DNA of 64,000 nucleotides from Paraburkholderia sp. Tr-20389 (GTDB lineage Bacteria; Pseudomonadota; Gammaproteobacteria; Burkholderiales; Burkholderiaceae), in NCBI RefSeq assembly GCF_017104565.1, contig NZ_JAAGPD010000031.1, forward strand, positions 1-64,000, read 5' to 3'. Below the pieces are notes generated by a model. That model had not been told where the DNA came from. It worked only from the letters and a program-made list of their open reading frames with translations, and made no database searches. Shown piece after piece: positions 17,162 to 24,338 of the stretch. The position numbers and the translations under genes were made by a program. Every line of letters starts with the position of its first letter. Position 1 is the first letter of the stretch.

Positions 17162-17314
17162 CGCGATTTGCTTTTTTTTTTGTCTGCGACGCTAGTCGCC
17201 ATTCTGGTTTTTTTGCTGGCGAGCGCCTTTTTTTCGCTGGCATCCGCGGTTTCCAGCGCTGGCATCCGCGCTTTCGTAGTGGTAGTTCATGCGTTGCCCC
17301 TGTGCGGGGCGGCA

Positions 17315-17346
17315 CTTACTTTCTTTGCCGCCGCAAAGAAAGTAAG
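17315..17346. terminator. Perfect 14-bp hairpin in left arm of element A
   Basis: CTTACTTTCTTTGC - CGCC - GCAAAGAAAGTAAG. It is preceded by a GC palindrome CCCCTGTGCGGGG. The same hairpin recurs at 23648-23679. It could stop or stabilise transcripts of the upstream GGDEF-EAL gene; there is no long U-run, so a terminator role is inference. Confidence 0.45.
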
Positions 17347-17516
17347 CAAAGAAAGCGGGCTAACCCCGCCAGTGCTTGTTCCTGCCTGCGGGCCCCCAAC
17401 GGGTCCCGCGCTCCAGACGGCATCGCGCTATTTCATGCGCGTTGCCAGCGTGCTAACTGCACGCCTCACCCACTTCTCACTCTCGCGTCACGGATTGCGT
17501 TACCAAACGTCCGCCG

Positions 17517-17649
17517 CCGCCCAGGTGGCAAACTGTGTGTAGGCTGTCGCGATGGAAGTGCATCACTCCGGACTGAAAAGCGGATCGGTGTCGTAGTATC
17601 GCCAACGCAGACGGCGCGACAAGGTACACACAGTTTGCCACCTGGGCGG
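17517..17649. repeat. 25-bp inverted repeats flanking the 83-bp core, copy A
   Basis: The arm at 17517-17541 contains AGGTGGCAAACTGTGTGTA and its exact reverse complement is at 17625-17649. The enclosed 83 bases match the core of copy B only when reverse-complemented (about 73 of 83 positions by eye). Confidence 0.85.
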
Positions 17650-17888
17650 CGCGGACGGGTCGCTGCCGCTGGCTGCCTGCGGGTGATTGGAGTGGGTGAT
17701 GCGTCTGTTCGAGGCGCTGGCAACGGGCGCAAAACAAAGTGTTGCCGTGTGGAGTGCGGGACCTGCTGGGGGCCCGCAGGCAAGAACACGGGCTAGCGGT
17801 GTGAGCGGCTTTCTTTTGCCTACTTTTCTTTGCCGCTGCAAAGAAAAGTAGGTGCCGCCCCGCACAGGGGCAACGCCAGCAAACCAAA

Positions 17889-17992
17889 GACATAGCGCGG
17901 ATGCCGGCGCAAAAGACATAGCGCGGATGCCAGCGCAAAAGACATAGCGCGGATGCCAGCGCAAAAGACATAGCGCGGATGCCAGCGCAAAA
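17889..17992. repeat. Four tandem 26-bp repeats in right arm of element A
   Basis: GACATAGCGCGGATGCC begins at 17889, 17915, 17941 and 17967, each followed by a GGCGC or AGCGC tail and an A-run. The 26-bp period is not a multiple of three. Copy B has a single equivalent unit in its right arm (about 24226-24242), so the number varies. Confidence 0.85.
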
Positions 17993-18060
17993 AACCCGAA
18001 CCAGGAAGGCACCGCCAGCAAAAAAAACCAGAATGACGACTAGCGTCGCAGACAAAAAAA

Positions 18061-18744
18061 CTACTTCTTAACAAACCTCAAAGTAGCATCAACAATCATA
18101 GCGCGATGCCGCGCCCTCAACCTGATGTGAGACGGATCACGCCCAAACGCCGTACCGAAGGTATGCCGATTCGCGATCCGATGAAAGCACAATGAGCTAA
18201 TGAGCAGATGGAGATCGATCGCATCGATATCCTCGCGAAAATCCCCCGACGCGACCCCTCGCGTCAATAGATCTTCGATAGTATGAATCACCGTCGCATT
18301 GCGATTCTTGAAAGTCTTCACCTGCTCGATATACTTCGCGCCGTGAATGTTCTCGATCGTCACGAGACGCACGAAATCCCGATGCTTGTCGTGATAGTCG
18401 AACGTAAACTCGACGAGACTGCGCAGCCCATCCATCGGGCTCATGTCGCTGACCTTCAGATCCTGCTCGAGCGCGCGAATGTCGCCATACACTTTTTCGA
18501 GCACGGCCTCGTACAACCCTTCCTTGCTGCCGAAGTAGTAGTACAGCATGCGCTTCGTGGTATTGGTGCGCTCGGCGATCGCGTCGACACGCGCGCCCGT
18601 CAGTCCCATCGACGAAAACTCCTGCGTAGCTACTTCGAGGATGTTGCGCTTCGTCTCTTCGGGATCGTATTTGCGCCGTGGTTCGGAGGTCTCGGTCGGG
18701 GTCTCGATTTGCTCGGGCACGGTTGCTCGGCTTCCCTTTTTCAT
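18061..18744 (-). CDS. TetR/AcrR family transcriptional regulator
   Basis: 227 residues. The N-terminal HTH is clear at about 30-78: KRNILEVATQEFSSMGL, then ARVDAIAERTNTTKRMLYYYFGSKEGLYEAV, the canonical TetR helix-turn-helix. The C-terminal ligand domain includes DYHDKHRDFVRLVTIENIHG and LISSLCFHRIANRHTF. The ligand is unknown. The PuuB-like oxidase gene lies 117 bases upstream on the same strand, so the regulator may control it or be co-transcribed with it. The stop codon abuts the palindromic element. Confidence 0.92.
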   Translation of the reverse strand: MKKGSRATVPEQIETPTETSEPRRKYDPEETKRNILEVATQEFSSMGLTGARVDAIAERTNTTKRMLYYYFGSKEGLYEAVLEKVYGDIRALEQDLKVSDMSPMDGLRSLVEFTFDYHDKHRDFVRLVTIENIHGAKYIEQVKTFKNRNATVIHTIEDLLTRGVASGDFREDIDAIDLHLLISSLCFHRIANRHTFGTAFGRDPSHIRLRARHRAMIVDATLRFVKK

Positions 18745-18861
18745 TGTGTATTCCGGCGGCGATGACGTTTCATTCTAGCATGCCGAAATCGCCAGCCGGC
18801 GCGGCCTGGCGGCATGTCCGGACGTGCCGCCGGGCCCTCTCAGGCGTGCCGCGCAATCCGT

Positions 18862-20139
18862 TCAGTCCGGGCGCCGCGGACGGTCCGCGAGCGCGTCGCG
18901 TGTCTGCATCGCCGTGTAGGTCAGCTGCGCGGCGGCGAGCCCCAGCGCGCCGAACGTGTGCGTGAGACCGAACGATGCGAATGCGTCGGGCACGGGGCGT
19001 TCGCCCGCGATGGCGGCCGCCAGCAGTTCGCCCGATACCGTGGTCGGCGCCATCCCATGTCCGCCGAAGCCGACCGCGTACCAGACTCCGTCCGCGCTCT
19101 GGCCGATCTGCGGCATCTTGTGCCGCGCGTAACTCATCAGGCCACCCCATGCATGCTCGATGCGCACGTCGCGCAACTGCGGATACACCTTCAGCAGATC
19201 GCGGCGTAACAGCCGCGCAATGACTTCGGGCTCGCGTTCGAGAATCGAAATGCGACCGCCCCACAGGATGCGCGTGTCGGGCAGCGGCCGGTAGTAGTCG
19301 AAGGCGAAGCGCGTGTCGTACACGGCGGAAGGGCAGTCGATCGCGTCCGCCAGCCGCGCGCCGAGCGGCTCGGTCGCCATCACGTAGGTGGCGATCGGCA
19401 GCACCGCGCGCTCGACGCGCCGGTAGACGTTGCGCGCATAGCCGCCGCCCGCCATCACGACGTGCCGGGCGTCGACCGTCCCGTGCGCCGTATCGACCGC
19501 AAACCCCGCGCCTTGGCGGCGCAGCGACGTGACGGGCGACTGCTCGACGATCCGCACGCCGGCCGCTTCGGCGGCACGCGCGACACCGAGTACATACTTC
19601 AATGGATGAAAGTGAAATGCGTTGCGCTCGAAGAGTCCGCCGTGATAACGCGTGGTCTTCAGACGCGCGCTCAGCTCGGCGGCGCCCAGCGGTTCCCATT
19701 CGACGTCGAAGGCGTCCTTCATCAGGCGGCGCTGGCTGTCGAGCCGCGACGGATCGTCGAACCAGTTCGCGAGGATCACGCCCGCGTCGGTCGCGTCGCA
19801 GGCGATTGCGTAACGCTGGATCCGCGCGCGCATCAGATCGACCGCGTCGATGGTCAGCGCGTAGAGTTCGCGGGCACGCGCCGGCCCGAGAATCCGCAGC
19901 AGGTCCGCGCAATCGAGGCTGTAGCCGCCGAACACGAAGCCGCCGTTGCGCCCCGACGCGCCGTAGCCGACCTGCTTCGCTTCGACCACGACGACGTCCC
20001 GCACGCCGCGCTCGGCCAGTCCGAGCGCCGTCGACAGGCCCGCCAGCCCGCCGCCGACCACGCAGACGTTCGCGCCCAGCTGTCCGGTTAGTTCGGGGCG
20101 CAGGGGACGCTCGACGGTCGCTTCGTAGTAGCTATGCAT
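18862..20139 (-). CDS. FAD-dependent oxidoreductase, PuuB/DadA-like (third copy in window)
   Basis: 425 residues from ATG 20139. The FAD-binding fingerprint is VCVVGGGLAGLSTALGLAE, followed by GYGASGRNGGFVFGGYS, characteristic of gamma-glutamylputrescine oxidase and relatives. FAYDYYRPLPDTRILWGGR-like (AFDYYRPLPDTRILWGGR), HAWGGLMSYARHKMPQIG and VGFGGHGMAPTTVSGELLA also match the family. The N-terminal SYYEATVERPL aligns with the paralogue at 51638 and sets the start at 20139; an in-frame GTG at 20151 is possible. It sits next to a TetR gene and far from the polyamine operon, so it may oxidise a different amine or amino-acid substrate. Confidence 0.85.
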   Translation of the reverse strand: MHSYYEATVERPLRPELTGQLGANVCVVGGGLAGLSTALGLAERGVRDVVVVEAKQVGYGASGRNGGFVFGGYSLDCADLLRILGPARARELYALTIDAVDLMRARIQRYAIACDATDAGVILANWFDDPSRLDSQRRLMKDAFDVEWEPLGAAELSARLKTTRYHGGLFERNAFHFHPLKYVLGVARAAEAAGVRIVEQSPVTSLRRQGAGFAVDTAHGTVDARHVVMAGGGYARNVYRRVERAVLPIATYVMATEPLGARLADAIDCPSAVYDTRFAFDYYRPLPDTRILWGGRISILEREPEVIARLLRRDLLKVYPQLRDVRIEHAWGGLMSYARHKMPQIGQSADGVWYAVGFGGHGMAPTTVSGELLAAAIAGERPVPDAFASFGLTHTFGALGLAAAQLTYTAMQTRDALADRPRRPD

Positions 20140-20151
20140 GCGGTTTGGCAC

Positions 20152-20480
20152 AAAGGCGCGTAGTGTTTCGGGGGCGCGGATATATTACGCAACTTCGCCT
20201 GCATGTCGTATCCGGTATTTCAGGGGTGGTTTCACGTTCGGCAAGCGTGCGCCGCAGGTTGCATCGGCATCGAATGCGGTCTGCTTTACCCGGCTGCGCG
20301 GGACTGCGCGTTGCAGTCCGGCAAAAAATGCGCGCTTGTCGTATCTCCGTGACGACTGTGTTGCGTGGCGTACTCACCCGCGCAAGTCCCGGCGATTCCG
20401 ACCCTCGCAAACGCGCGTTCCGCGCTAGACTGACAGCAGTCGACGTGAATGTGGTTAGGCATCTGCAAGGAGACGCCGCC
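20152..20480. other. Divergent intergenic region upstream of PBP gene
   Basis: This roughly 330-bp region separates the minus-strand oxidase from the plus-strand penicillin-binding protein. It should hold both promoters. Reading frames within it lack ribosome sites and recognisable features. Confidence 0.3.
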
Positions 20481-23400
20481 ATGAATCGGCCACTACGGTT
20501 TCCGCTACGCGCAATCGGCACCACGCCCGTCTGGAAGTGGTTCAAGTGGCTCTTTTTCGCCGCGTTTCTCGTTGCCGTCGCGCTCGGCGTGCGTTTCATC
20601 CAGATCGAAATGGACACGTCGCGATTGCAGGCGCGCTATCTGTCCGAACTCACGCGCGACGTCGGCTTCACCGTGTCGGAAGGCCCGAGCGACAATATCC
20701 GCTTTCCCACCGACGGCCCGTACGACATCCGCCTTGGCTACGCCTTGCTACCCGCATTCGAACGGCGTTTGAAAGAGCGCGGGTTTTCGGTGGCATCGCA
20801 GGCACGCGATTCGGAACGGATGGCGTCGCTCGCCGACGACGGACTTTTCATTCCCTACGAAGAAAAGGATCAGGCGGGCCTGACGCTGTATGACTCGACG
20901 GGCACGCGCCTGTTCGGCTCGCAGTATCCCGCGCGCGTGTATGACGATTTCGAGGCGGTGCCGCCTCTTGTCGTGTCGGCGCTGCTCTTTATCGAAGACC
21001 GCCATCTGCTCGACACCGACGAGCCGAACCGCAATCCCGCGATCGACTGGGGGCGCTTCAGCCGCGCGCTGATGGATCAGGGGCTGCGGGTTTTCAACCA
21101 TAGCCAGCCGCAGCCCGGCGGCAGCACGCTCGCCACGCAGATCGAGAAATTCCGCCATTCACCCGGCGGCCGCACCGCGACACCGAAGGAAAAGCTCCGG
21201 CAGATCGGGTCGGCGTCCGTGCGCGCGTACCTGGACGGTCCGCGCACGATGCCCGCGCGCCAGCAGATCGTCGTCCGCTATCTGAATTCGGTGCCGCTTG
21301 CAGCGCAGCCGGGTATCGGCGAAGTGAACGGCATCGGTGACGGACTCACTGCCTGGTACGGCCGCGATTTCGCCGAAGTTAACCGTGTGCTGAAAGCGCC
21401 GCCGACGCCCGAGAATCTCCCCGAGCAGGGGCTTGCGTTCCGTCAGGTGCTGTCGCTGATGATCGCGCAACGCGGCCCGTCGCATTTCCTGCTGCGCAAG
21501 AACGATGAACTCAATGCTCTGACGGAAAGCTATCTGCGGATCTTCGCGACGAACGGCGTGATCACGCCGCAACTGCGCGATGCAGCGCTCGCGCAACAGC
21601 TCGTGCTGACACGCTCGAAGCTCGCGACGCCCGAGGGCTCGTTCATCGAACGCAAGGCGGTGACGTCGTTGCGCACGCATCTGCTGTCGTCGCTTGGCGT
21701 GTCGAATCTGTACGATCTCGACCGGCTCGACGTTCGCGTCACGTCGACGATGAACAACAAGGTTCAGCAGGCCATCAGCGATCGCCTCGCTGCTGCCACG
21801 ACGAAGGACGGCGCGCAGGCAGCGGGACTGTACGGCTTCAACATGCTGCAGCCGAAGGACGATCCGTCGAAGATCGCCTTCAGCTTCACGCTGTTCGAAA
21901 AGCGCGACGGCGCAAACCTGTTGCGCGTGCAGACGGACAGCGTGAACCGCCCGTTCGATATCAACTCGGGCGCACGCCTGAATCTCGGTTCGACGGCGAA
22001 GCTGCGCACGATCATCACGTATCTGCAGATCATGTCGGAACTGCATGCGCACTATGGTCAAATGAGCGTCGATGAACTGCGCGCGGTGAAGCCCGAGCGC
22101 GAAGACGCGTTGACGCGCTGGGCCGTCGATTATTTCATGCACACGAACGACCGCTCGCTTCCGGCGATGCTCGATGCGTCGGTGGAGCGCAAGTATTCGG
22201 CCAATGCGGGCGAAACGTTCTTCACGGGCGGCGGCGCGCAGACCTTCACGAACTTCGAAGCCGACGAGAATTCGCGCATTCTCACCGTGCATCAGGCTTT
22301 TCAGCATTCGGTGAATCTGGTGTTCGTGCGGCTCATGCGCGACATCGTCCACTACGAGACGATCAAGACGTCGGGCCCGTCGTCGCAATGGCTCAGCGAT
22401 CCCGACACGCGCAAGATGTACCTGACGCGCTTCGCCGATCAGGAAAGCCGCGTATACATGAACCGCTTCTACACGAAGTATCACGGCAAGACGCAGGACG
22501 AGATGCTTGCCGTTCTTCTGCATGGCGTGCGCAAGTCGCCGCCGAAAGTAGCGACCGTCTTGCGCAGCGTGCGGCCCGATGCACCGCAGGCGTGGTTCAA
22601 CGAGCAGATGCGTGCGGCGCTGAAGAACACGCCGAAAGCGAATCCACCCGACGATGCGCTCGCGGAGCTTTATGCGAAGTACGCGATCGACAAATTCAAC
22701 CTGAACGACCGCGCGTACATTTCGAGTGTTCATCCGCTGGAACTGTGGCTTGTCGATTATCTGCGGGAGCATCCTGAGGCAAGCGCGAACGATGTAATGG
22801 AGGCAAGCCACGACGTGCGCGCCGAATCGTACAAGTGGCTCTTCAAGACGCGCTATCACGCCACTCAAGATCGTCGCATTCGCCGTATGGTCGAGCAGCA
22901 TGCGTATGACGCGATCGGCAAATCGTGGCAGGCGCTTGGCTATCCGTTTGCGCATTTGACGCCTTCGTATGCGGCTGCGATTGGAGCATCGGGGGATCGG
23001 CCGGCGGCGCTGGCGCAGTTGATCGGTGTGATTGCGAACAAGGGGAATCAGGCGCCGACGCAGAGCTTGAGCGAGCTTGAGTTCGCGAAGGGCACGCCAT
23101 ATGAAACGCGCTTCGTGCGCGCAACGCCGCAGCCGAGCGAGGCCATTTCGCCGGAGATTGCGCGGGTCGCGCAGACCATGATGCGCGATGTCGTTGCTGG
23201 GGGGACGGCTAAGCGCCTTGCTGGTGGGATGACGTTTCCGAACGGGACGACGCTCGAGGTTTATGGCAAGACGGGGACTGGGGATCAGCGGCTCAATATT
23301 TACGCCAAGGGGCGGCGTCTGATCGAGTCGCGGAAGGTTAATCGTACGGCGACGTTTGTTTTTGCTATTGGCGATCGGTTTTTTGGTACTTTGACTGCCG

Positions 23401-23540
23401 TCGTGCATGAGCCTTATGCCAAGCGGTATGACTTTACCAGTGCACTTGCAGTGCAATTGCTGAAGTCGATGGCTGCTGAGTTGCAGCCGTTGCTGGATCG
23501 AGATTCCGATCAGGGTGGCAGTTACACTGCGGCTAGGTAG
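20481..23540 (+). CDS. Bifunctional class A penicillin-binding protein (GT51 plus transpeptidase), atypical
   Basis: 1019 residues from ATG 20481 (AAGGAGACGCCGCC upstream); the much longer upstream frame is non-coding. A single membrane anchor at about 22-42 is followed by GT51: IEDRHLL with Glu172, GGSTLATQ at 213-220 and VVRYLNSVPLAAQPG at 264-278. The transpeptidase has SxxK Ser504-Lys507 (GSTAK), SVN 610-612 and KTG 930-932. So both peptidoglycan glycosyltransferase and DD-transpeptidase sites appear intact. Oddities: the spacing after ED in GT51 has an insert (DTDEPNRNPAIDWGRF), and about 318 residues separate SxN from KTG, well over the usual. The insert (about 625-820) is charged and helical. 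No partner gene is adjacent. The stop abuts palindromic element B. Confidence 0.9.
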   Translation: MNRPLRFPLRAIGTTPVWKWFKWLFFAAFLVAVALGVRFIQIEMDTSRLQARYLSELTRDVGFTVSEGPSDNIRFPTDGPYDIRLGYALLPAFERRLKERGFSVASQARDSERMASLADDGLFIPYEEKDQAGLTLYDSTGTRLFGSQYPARVYDDFEAVPPLVVSALLFIEDRHLLDTDEPNRNPAIDWGRFSRALMDQGLRVFNHSQPQPGGSTLATQIEKFRHSPGGRTATPKEKLRQIGSASVRAYLDGPRTMPARQQIVVRYLNSVPLAAQPGIGEVNGIGDGLTAWYGRDFAEVNRVLKAPPTPENLPEQGLAFRQVLSLMIAQRGPSHFLLRKNDELNALTESYLRIFATNGVITPQLRDAALAQQLVLTRSKLATPEGSFIERKAVTSLRTHLLSSLGVSNLYDLDRLDVRVTSTMNNKVQQAISDRLAAATTKDGAQAAGLYGFNMLQPKDDPSKIAFSFTLFEKRDGANLLRVQTDSVNRPFDINSGARLNLGSTAKLRTIITYLQIMSELHAHYGQMSVDELRAVKPEREDALTRWAVDYFMHTNDRSLPAMLDASVERKYSANAGETFFTGGGAQTFTNFEADENSRILTVHQAFQHSVNLVFVRLMRDIVHYETIKTSGPSSQWLSDPDTRKMYLTRFADQESRVYMNRFYTKYHGKTQDEMLAVLLHGVRKSPPKVATVLRSVRPDAPQAWFNEQMRAALKNTPKANPPDDALAELYAKYAIDKFNLNDRAYISSVHPLELWLVDYLREHPEASANDVMEASHDVRAESYKWLFKTRYHATQDRRIRRMVEQHAYDAIGKSWQALGYPFAHLTPSYAAAIGASGDRPAALAQLIGVIANKGNQAPTQSLSELEFAKGTPYETRFVRATPQPSEAISPEIARVAQTMMRDVVAGGTAKRLAGGMTFPNGTTLEVYGKTGTGDQRLNIYAKGRRLIESRKVNRTATFVFAIGDRFFGTLTAVVHEPYAKRYDFTSALAVQLLKSMAAELQPLLDRDSDQGGSYTAAR

Positions 23541-23850
23541 GTTTTTTGCTGGCGAGCGCCTTTTTTTCGCTGGCATCCGCGGTTTCCAGCGCTGGCATCC
23601 GCGCTTTCGTAGTGGTAGTTCATGCGTTGCCCCTGTGCGGGGCGGCACTTACTTTCTTTGCCGCCGCAAAGAAAGTAAGCAAAGAAAGCGGGCTAACCCC
23701 GCCAGTGCTTGTTCCTGCCTGCGGGCCCCCAACGGGTCCCGCGCTCCAGACGGCATCGCGCTATTTCATGCGCGTTGCCAGCGTGCTAACTGCACGCCTC
23801 ACCCACTTCCCACTCCGGCGTCACGCTCCGCGTTGCCAGAAAGTCCACCG

Positions 23851-23983
23851 CCGCCCAGGTGGCAAACTGTGTGTAGCTTGTCGCATCGCATGCGTTGGCG
23901 ATTCTACGACACCGATCCGCTTTTCGGTCCGGAGTGGTGCACTTCCAGCGCGACGGCCTACACACAGTTTGCCACCTGGGCGG
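23851..23983. repeat. Inner inverted repeats and 83-bp core, copy B (inverted relative to A)
   Basis: The 25-bp arms are the same as in copy A, but the core (23876-23958) reads GGCGATTCTACGACACCGAT on the plus strand, whereas copy A carries the equivalent on the minus strand. Flanking left arms are in the same orientation in both copies, so only the core is flipped. Confidence 0.85.
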
Positions 23984-24151
23984 CGGTGGACGGTTGCTAA
24001 GGCAGTTAGTGACGCGGACGTGTGAAGAGGGTGATGCATGCGGTTAGCACGCTGGCAACGGGCATGGAATAGCACGTTGCCGCGCGAAGGACGGGGACGT
24101 TGGGGCTCCTGGGCAATCAAGTGGGCTAGCGGTGTGAGCGGCTTTCTTTTG

Positions 24152-24185
24152 CCTACTTTTCTTTGCCGCTGCAAAGAAAAGTAGG
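24152..24185. terminator. 15-bp hairpin in right arm of element B
   Basis: CCTACTTTTCTTTGC - CGCT - GCAAAGAAAAGTAGG. It lies downstream of the ROK gene stop on the minus strand and has an identical counterpart at 17819-17852 downstream of the tetR stop. A transcript-end role is plausible but unproved. Confidence 0.45.
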
Positions 24186-24338
24186 TGCTGCCCCGCACAG
24201 GGGCAACGCCTGCAAACCAGAAGCAAAGCGCGGATGCCAGCGAAAAAACCCCCAACCAAAGTCAAAAACAGCGACTAGCGTCGCAGACAACAAAAAAGCC
24301 CAGGAATGGCGACTAGCGTCGCAGACAACAAAAAAACC

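Follow-up and report, generated by a model that had tools for sequence, protein, structure and literature searches.

The question raised by this locus is whether a short DNA segment, enclosed by inverted repeats and found in two opposite orientations, is an invertible switch. The window, i.e., the whole stretch of 64,000 nucleotides that was analyzed, belongs to contig 25 of the 9.0 Mb, 129-contig draft genome of Paraburkholderia sp. Tr-20389. It contains two copies, A and B, of a palindromic element in which a core is enclosed by two 25-bp inverted arms. An initial annotation had proposed that the core is flipped relative to its flanks between the two copies, that the inverted repeats offer a route for recombination and that an invertible switch is possible. 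The comparison of both copies, of the repeat family and of related genomes indicates that the flips are probably a by-product of two processes acting on a symmetric and possibly terminator-like repeat, i.e., ectopic gene conversion and homologous inversion.

The description of the two copies is correct: the four arms (17517-17541, the reverse complement of 17625-17649, 23851-23875 and the reverse complement of 23959-23983) are identical at 25 of 25 positions and each core has 83 bp. Core A fits core B with 10 mismatches as reverse complement vs. 54 directly, i.e., far beyond chance. The remark that the left arms run in the same direction is uninformative, since the arms within a copy are exact reverse complements. 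The inner 120-bp flanks of B were also compared with those of A: the left one has 12 differences in place, the right one 44 in place and 43 inverted. Typing against 99 concordant copies (i.e., copies whose core orientation agrees with their flanks) gives left-type on the left and right-type on the right for copy A, and left-type on both sides for copy B (medians 30 vs. 44 and 33 vs. 47 differences). Since its right flank is a second left-type flank, copy B is a mosaic in which the core is bordered on both sides by left-type sequence, and not copy A with only the core turned. A flip of the core relative to its flanks exists in the family (see below), but it does not describe copy B. The features of the two copies are the following.

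17175..17214, strand +: outermost 40-bp inverted repeat of copy A, left, 98% complementary to 18021-18060
17291..17356, strand +: left outer repeat of copy A, L-type, inverted repeat with hairpin GTTGCCCCTGTGCGGGGCGGC plus the CTTACTTTC..GAAAGTAAG hairpin, terminator-like, inward-facing (exact L-type pattern match at 17312-17356)
17357..17516, no strand: left inner spacer of copy A, about 160 bp, conserved in length, variable in sequence
17517..17541, strand +: left inner arm of copy A, 25 bp, from arm comparison
17542..17624, strand + (set as the + orientation): core of copy A, 83 bp, concordant with its own inner flanks
17625..17649, strand −: right inner arm of copy A, 25 bp, from arm comparison
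17650..17807, no strand: right inner spacer of copy A, conserved in length, variable in sequence
17808..17876, strand −: right outer repeat of copy A, R-type, inverted repeat, terminator-like (exact R-type match at 17808-17855)
18021..18060, strand −: outermost 40-bp inverted repeat of copy A, right, pairing with 17175-17214
23621..23689, strand +: left outer repeat of copy B, L-type, inverted repeat (L-type match at 23645-23689)
23690..23850, no strand: left inner spacer of copy B, left-type, near the left spacer of A (12/120 differences)
23851..23875, strand +: left inner arm of copy B, 25 bp, from arm comparison
23876..23958, strand −: core of copy B, 83 bp, reversed vs. core A
23959..23983, strand −: right inner arm of copy B, 25 bp, from arm comparison
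23984..24140, no strand: right inner spacer of copy B, left-type too by flank typing (mosaic copy)
24141..24212, strand −: right outer repeat of copy B, R-type, inverted repeat (R-type match at 24141-24188)

Folded as RNA, the strand of copy A from 17505 to 17660 reaches −99.5 kcal/mol vs. a mean of −58.5 for shuffled sequences (z −10.75). The third pair of inverted repeats around copy A (17175-17214 and 18021-18060) is rich in T-runs. Short tandem units, GCGGATGCCAGCGCAAAAGACATA-like, occupy 17890-17990, directly beyond the right outer repeat of A; the zone matching them is also variable among strains of P. caribensis.

Copies A and B belong to a large family. The 25-bp arm has 233 matches in the genome at up to 3 mismatches, and the core, searched in two length versions, has 80 + 31 matches. 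The set completed from these core matches, which strongly diverged cores would escape, comprises at least 113 unique copies with both arms in every one (two copies with identical surroundings, L106 and L107, were counted as one). The core has 84 bp in 79 copies, 83 in 32, 82 in one and 106 in one. A one-base G/GG length variant occurs within the cores and speaks against a coding core, a reading that was dropped on that ground. The full unit of about 590 bp consists of outer repeat, spacer, arm, core, arm, spacer and outer repeat. The outer repeats and the inner arms hardly differ between copies, while the spacers vary in sequence but keep nearly the same length: the outer repeat lies 159-165 bp, mostly 162 bp, from the arm in 110/111 left and 112/112 right flanks scored, the single exceptional left flank having it at 270 bp.

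The outer repeats are of two types, L and R, which differ on both sides of the hairpin (CTTACTTTC..GAAAGTAAG vs. CCTACTTTTC..GAAAAGTAGG, as read from the search patterns). When up to 3 mismatches are allowed, 144 L-type and 98 R-type matches occur in the genome. The pattern has two free positions and is otherwise matched perfectly by every one of the 98 R-type matches and by at least 100 of the 144 L-type ones. The combinations around the 113 copies are LL (38), LR (37), RL (23) and RR (12), one side being absent in 3. The exact two-arm pattern has no match in the genome-contig collection; the family was thus traced via the plasmid collection and same-genus genomes. In 5 other records matched by the arm patterns, the core pattern of this genome finds nothing, because their cores differ. 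No published description of this repeat was found in the literature searched, the coverage of which leaves out most subscription journals.

The orientation of all copies was scored, as the initial annotation had suggested, by a leave-one-out k-mer score of the inner flanks. The core is concordant with its flanks in 100/113 copies, reversed vs. both in 8 and mixed in 5, copy B included. In a smaller first pass with pairwise scores, 41/44 cores were concordant. In P. caribensis the flank types are as expected in 68/70 palindromes per side, and one palindrome (L202) is reversed on both sides. Core orientation is thus usually fixed relative to the flanks; relatives also differ from each other, as described hereafter.

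Loci A and B were then compared with same-genus relatives. For each site 118 genomes were searched and the best 30 loci retrieved with about 1.5 kb of flank, a range that farther palindromes would escape. Locus A lies between a GGDEF/EAL gene and a TetR gene. Among its 29 same-genus loci a complete palindrome is found in 6, a single arm in 3 and none in 20. In the six palindromes the core is opposite to copy A (43-46 differences in place, 15-38 inverted). Their left flank is right-type in 6/6 and their right flank left-type in 5/6, the last one (L283; 43 vs. 41) being undecided between the two types. For the five more distant relatives these types rest on the typing against concordant copies and not on alignment to A, to which their flanks show 39-49 differences in place and 34-48 inverted. 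For L279, the nearest relative, the outer repeats are in place (7 and 15 differences vs. 20 and 22 inverted); in the other five they are uninformative on direction. Since six relatives of six carry the opposite core and mostly opposite flank types, copy A, inner block included, appears to be the reversed one. For locus A the outcome that the initial annotation had named as refuting its reading, a flip not limited to the core, is thus observed: the inner block is reversed vs. the relatives, with both flanks reversed in five of six and one flank undecided in the sixth.

At locus B the arms are present in 0/29 same-genus loci. Eleven of these loci were read: one (L248) has the outer repeats with a shortened interior. 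In another (L249) a different inner palindrome, with arms CCGGTGCCCGCCAGGATA.., takes the place that the arms and core occupy in copy B; judging from this locus, more than one kind of interior seems to fit between the outer repeats.

Orientation also differs between close strains. The plasmid records compared are chromids only, and single or weak arms were left uncounted. Three P. caribensis chromids contain 70 palindromes forming 42 orthologous pairs; orientation differs in 7 of these pairs, which represent 4 loci. Between strains MWAP64 and 852011, whose flank matches are 97.3-99.8% identical, this is the case at 1 of 17 shared loci. In P. largidicola F2 and PGU16 together with Paraburkholderia sp. 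PGU19, 64 palindromes form 33 pairs, and 10 pairs disagree in orientation; between F2 and PGU16 orientation differs at 3/14 loci (flank matches 98.7-100% identical).

The four same-species cases do not share their breakpoints, which vary from the arms to about 150 bp outside. In L211/L223 the core (15 differences) and both inner flanks are reversed, the block extending to about 150 bp out. In L382/L377 core, arms and one flank are reversed (core with 2 differences inverted vs. 42 in place); private arm variants travel with the core and the other flank differs in either direction. L370/L389 and L388/L371 are reversals of the core only, with 16 and 14 differences and with flanks nearer in place though changed. 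PGU19 has the orientation of PGU16 at the two latter loci and that of F2 at L382/L377. It must be noticed that flips are rarer than changes of core sequence, have no fixed breakpoints and bear no sign of regulation. The cores do reverse relative to their flanks, and the proposal that the inverted repeats serve as a recombination route is likely right.

The changes of core sequence point to exchange between copies. Among the 17 MWAP64/852011 pairs, 8 have cores differing at 7 positions or more, and in 8/8 both partners are closer to a core at another locus of the three P. caribensis strains. Up to 160 bp from the arms these two strains diverge by 5-22% in bins of 20 bp, whereas their outer repeats show a divergence of 0. 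Past 380 bp the left side drops to at most a few per cent and the right side to about 2-9%; the rise beyond about 600 bp is probably an effect of alignment ends. L389 and L392, which lie about 6 kb apart in the same record, have identical cores. Linkage among the 119 variable sites of the 113 copies decays within about 50 bp: mean r2 drops from 0.144 for sites 1-3 bp apart to 0.027 for those 30-50 bp apart and 0.013 for those 120-200 bp apart, the shuffled control giving 0.009. In P. caribensis MBA4 one palindrome (L190) has two right-type inner flanks with only 4/120 differences between them, a pattern which suggests arm-to-arm copying inside one palindrome.

The setting of the copies was described from neighbouring reading frames called by composition: 54 copies lie between convergent genes, 51 between tandem genes and 7 between divergent genes, one being undetermined. 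In tandem settings the core runs along the genes in 21 copies and against them in 30, thus no orientation bias is clear. In copies A and B terminator-like hairpins face inward from each side, and the repeat possibly acts as a terminator between genes, as its predicted hairpins suggest. The five proteins scanned near A and B are a GGDEF/EAL protein, a TetR regulator, a DAO protein, a penicillin-binding protein and a ROK regulator.

The following explanation is proposed: (i) A and B are two of at least 113 nested non-coding palindromes, which would lie mainly downstream of genes; (ii) short tracts would be swapped between copies by ectopic gene conversion; (iii) a tract could be pasted, or a block recombined in place, either way round, so that cores or whole inner blocks are occasionally reversed, because arms and outer repeats are symmetric; (iv) the process would be homologous recombination and not the work of a dedicated recombinase. 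By analogy, breakage of the hairpin (SbcCD) perhaps starts the exchange.

Several points weigh against this explanation. Copying conversion and in-place inversion are not separable in most cases: L382/L377 resembles an in-place inversion, while in the pair L211/L223 the core nearest to that of L223, at 1 difference, lies at another locus. Conversion does not by itself explain why arms and outer repeats hardly vary while the spacers do; selection or a binding protein is needed as well. MWAP64/852011 divergence is high again 220-380 bp from the arm, beyond the outer repeats, i.e., it is not confined to the element, and recurrent mutation (homoplasy) could add to the decay of linkage. As for the terminator role, the 5 and 4 hairpins of the two copies are a weak excess over shuffled sequences (2.3 and 1.3), one hairpin per copy faces outward, and the gene context is called from frame composition around the 113 copies only.

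A dedicated switch, in which a site-specific recombinase acting on the 25-bp arms would flip the core and alter the expression of a neighbour, accounts for exact inverted arms around a short core and for core-only flips (the 8 reversed copies, L370/L389 and L388/L371). It is nevertheless very improbable, given the strong bias to one orientation (100/113), breakpoints that also lie outside the arms, the 21 vs. 30 distribution in tandem settings and a divergent-gene setting in only 7 copies against 54 convergent ones. A scan covering the sigma-70-like type only finds no such promoter in copy A or B, and no recombinase is among the five neighbour proteins scanned, no genome-wide search for an invertase having been made. 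Somewhat less improbable, though still unlikely, is that a RAYT (Y1) transposase moves the repeat as a REPIN-like element, in which case opposite cores would be independent insertions either way round. Conserved inverted ends around a variable spacer of conserved length, as in REPINs (PMC3116915), more than 100 copies and the absence of copy B arms from the 29 related loci agree with it. However, orientation differs at shared loci without movement, and 2 of the 11 site B loci read already have outer repeats, so copy B need not be a new insertion. A Y1_Tnp search of the genome gives one match (L246, G000:C12:60223-60513; 26.6 bits, cut-off 23), with no obvious HUH motif on reading and with no arm in its 3.3-kb locus. 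Active RAYT mobilisation was rejected, this degenerate-looking gene being the only Y1 gene and its locus containing no arm. The lone Y1_Tnp-like gene is perhaps a domesticated remnant.

An assembly artefact, i.e., cores or blocks set the wrong way in a 129-contig draft containing a repeat more than 100 times, is barely credible: plasmid records described as complete (P. caribensis, P. largidicola) also differ from each other in orientation, and private arm variants move with the core. Gene conversion with homologous inversion remains the preferred explanation. It could be extended, in a tentative and rather unlikely form, to a genome-wide network of self-provoked recombination sites: core hairpins would break and be repaired from other copies via the invariant arms and outer repeats, holding more than 100 loci near linkage equilibrium; spacing and arms would be under selection, perhaps with a DNA-binding protein, and the flips would be the visible scars.

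The repeat family provides a natural record in which ectopic gene conversion of short tracts and small inversions can be counted in bacteria: even where the flanks of two strains of one species are 97-100% identical, the core sequence, and at times its orientation, is no longer the same. It also carries a warning, since a segment that lies in opposite orientations between inverted repeats does not, on this ground alone, demonstrate a phase switch. Should transcription end at the outer hairpins, convergent genes of Paraburkholderia would have in this repeat a widespread insulator.

The comparison with known elements starts with REPINs, which, according to PMC3116915, have two conserved inverted ends, a variable spacer of conserved length, a hairpin fold and more than 100 copies. 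The present family resembles them by its conserved inverted ends, its variable spacer of conserved length (core of 83-84 bp in 111/113), its hairpin fold and its high copy number (113); from frame composition its copies may also be extragenic. It differs from them by its second, nested pair of repeats, i.e., the outer repeats of 45-48 bp at a distance of about 162 bp (the whole measuring about 590 bp), by differences of core orientation at shared loci and by the lack of an active-looking RAYT in the genome search. Despite its architecture it is not classified as a REPIN, because the genome search gave no cognate RAYT flanked by the repeats. Miniature inverted-repeat transposable elements are likewise short, non-coding and dispersed with terminal inverted repeats; unlike in them, interiors are here exchanged between copies in place. 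Rfam RF02421 (Bp1_684, a Burkholderia small RNA candidate) has 4 matches at outer repeats and adjoining sequence, the best at 38.5 bits, all under the gathering score of 44. Lastly, the GTAG/CGTC-tagged dimers of repetitive extragenic palindromes described in PMC3733652, the main text of which does not mention Burkholderia, are palindromic repeats in inverted pairs, in most cases spaced 20-100 bp from each other, that carry GTAG at an end. The family consensus TGTGTGTAG at the inner end of both arms is similar (GTAC on the right of copy A), but the arms described here sit in a much larger nested palindrome.

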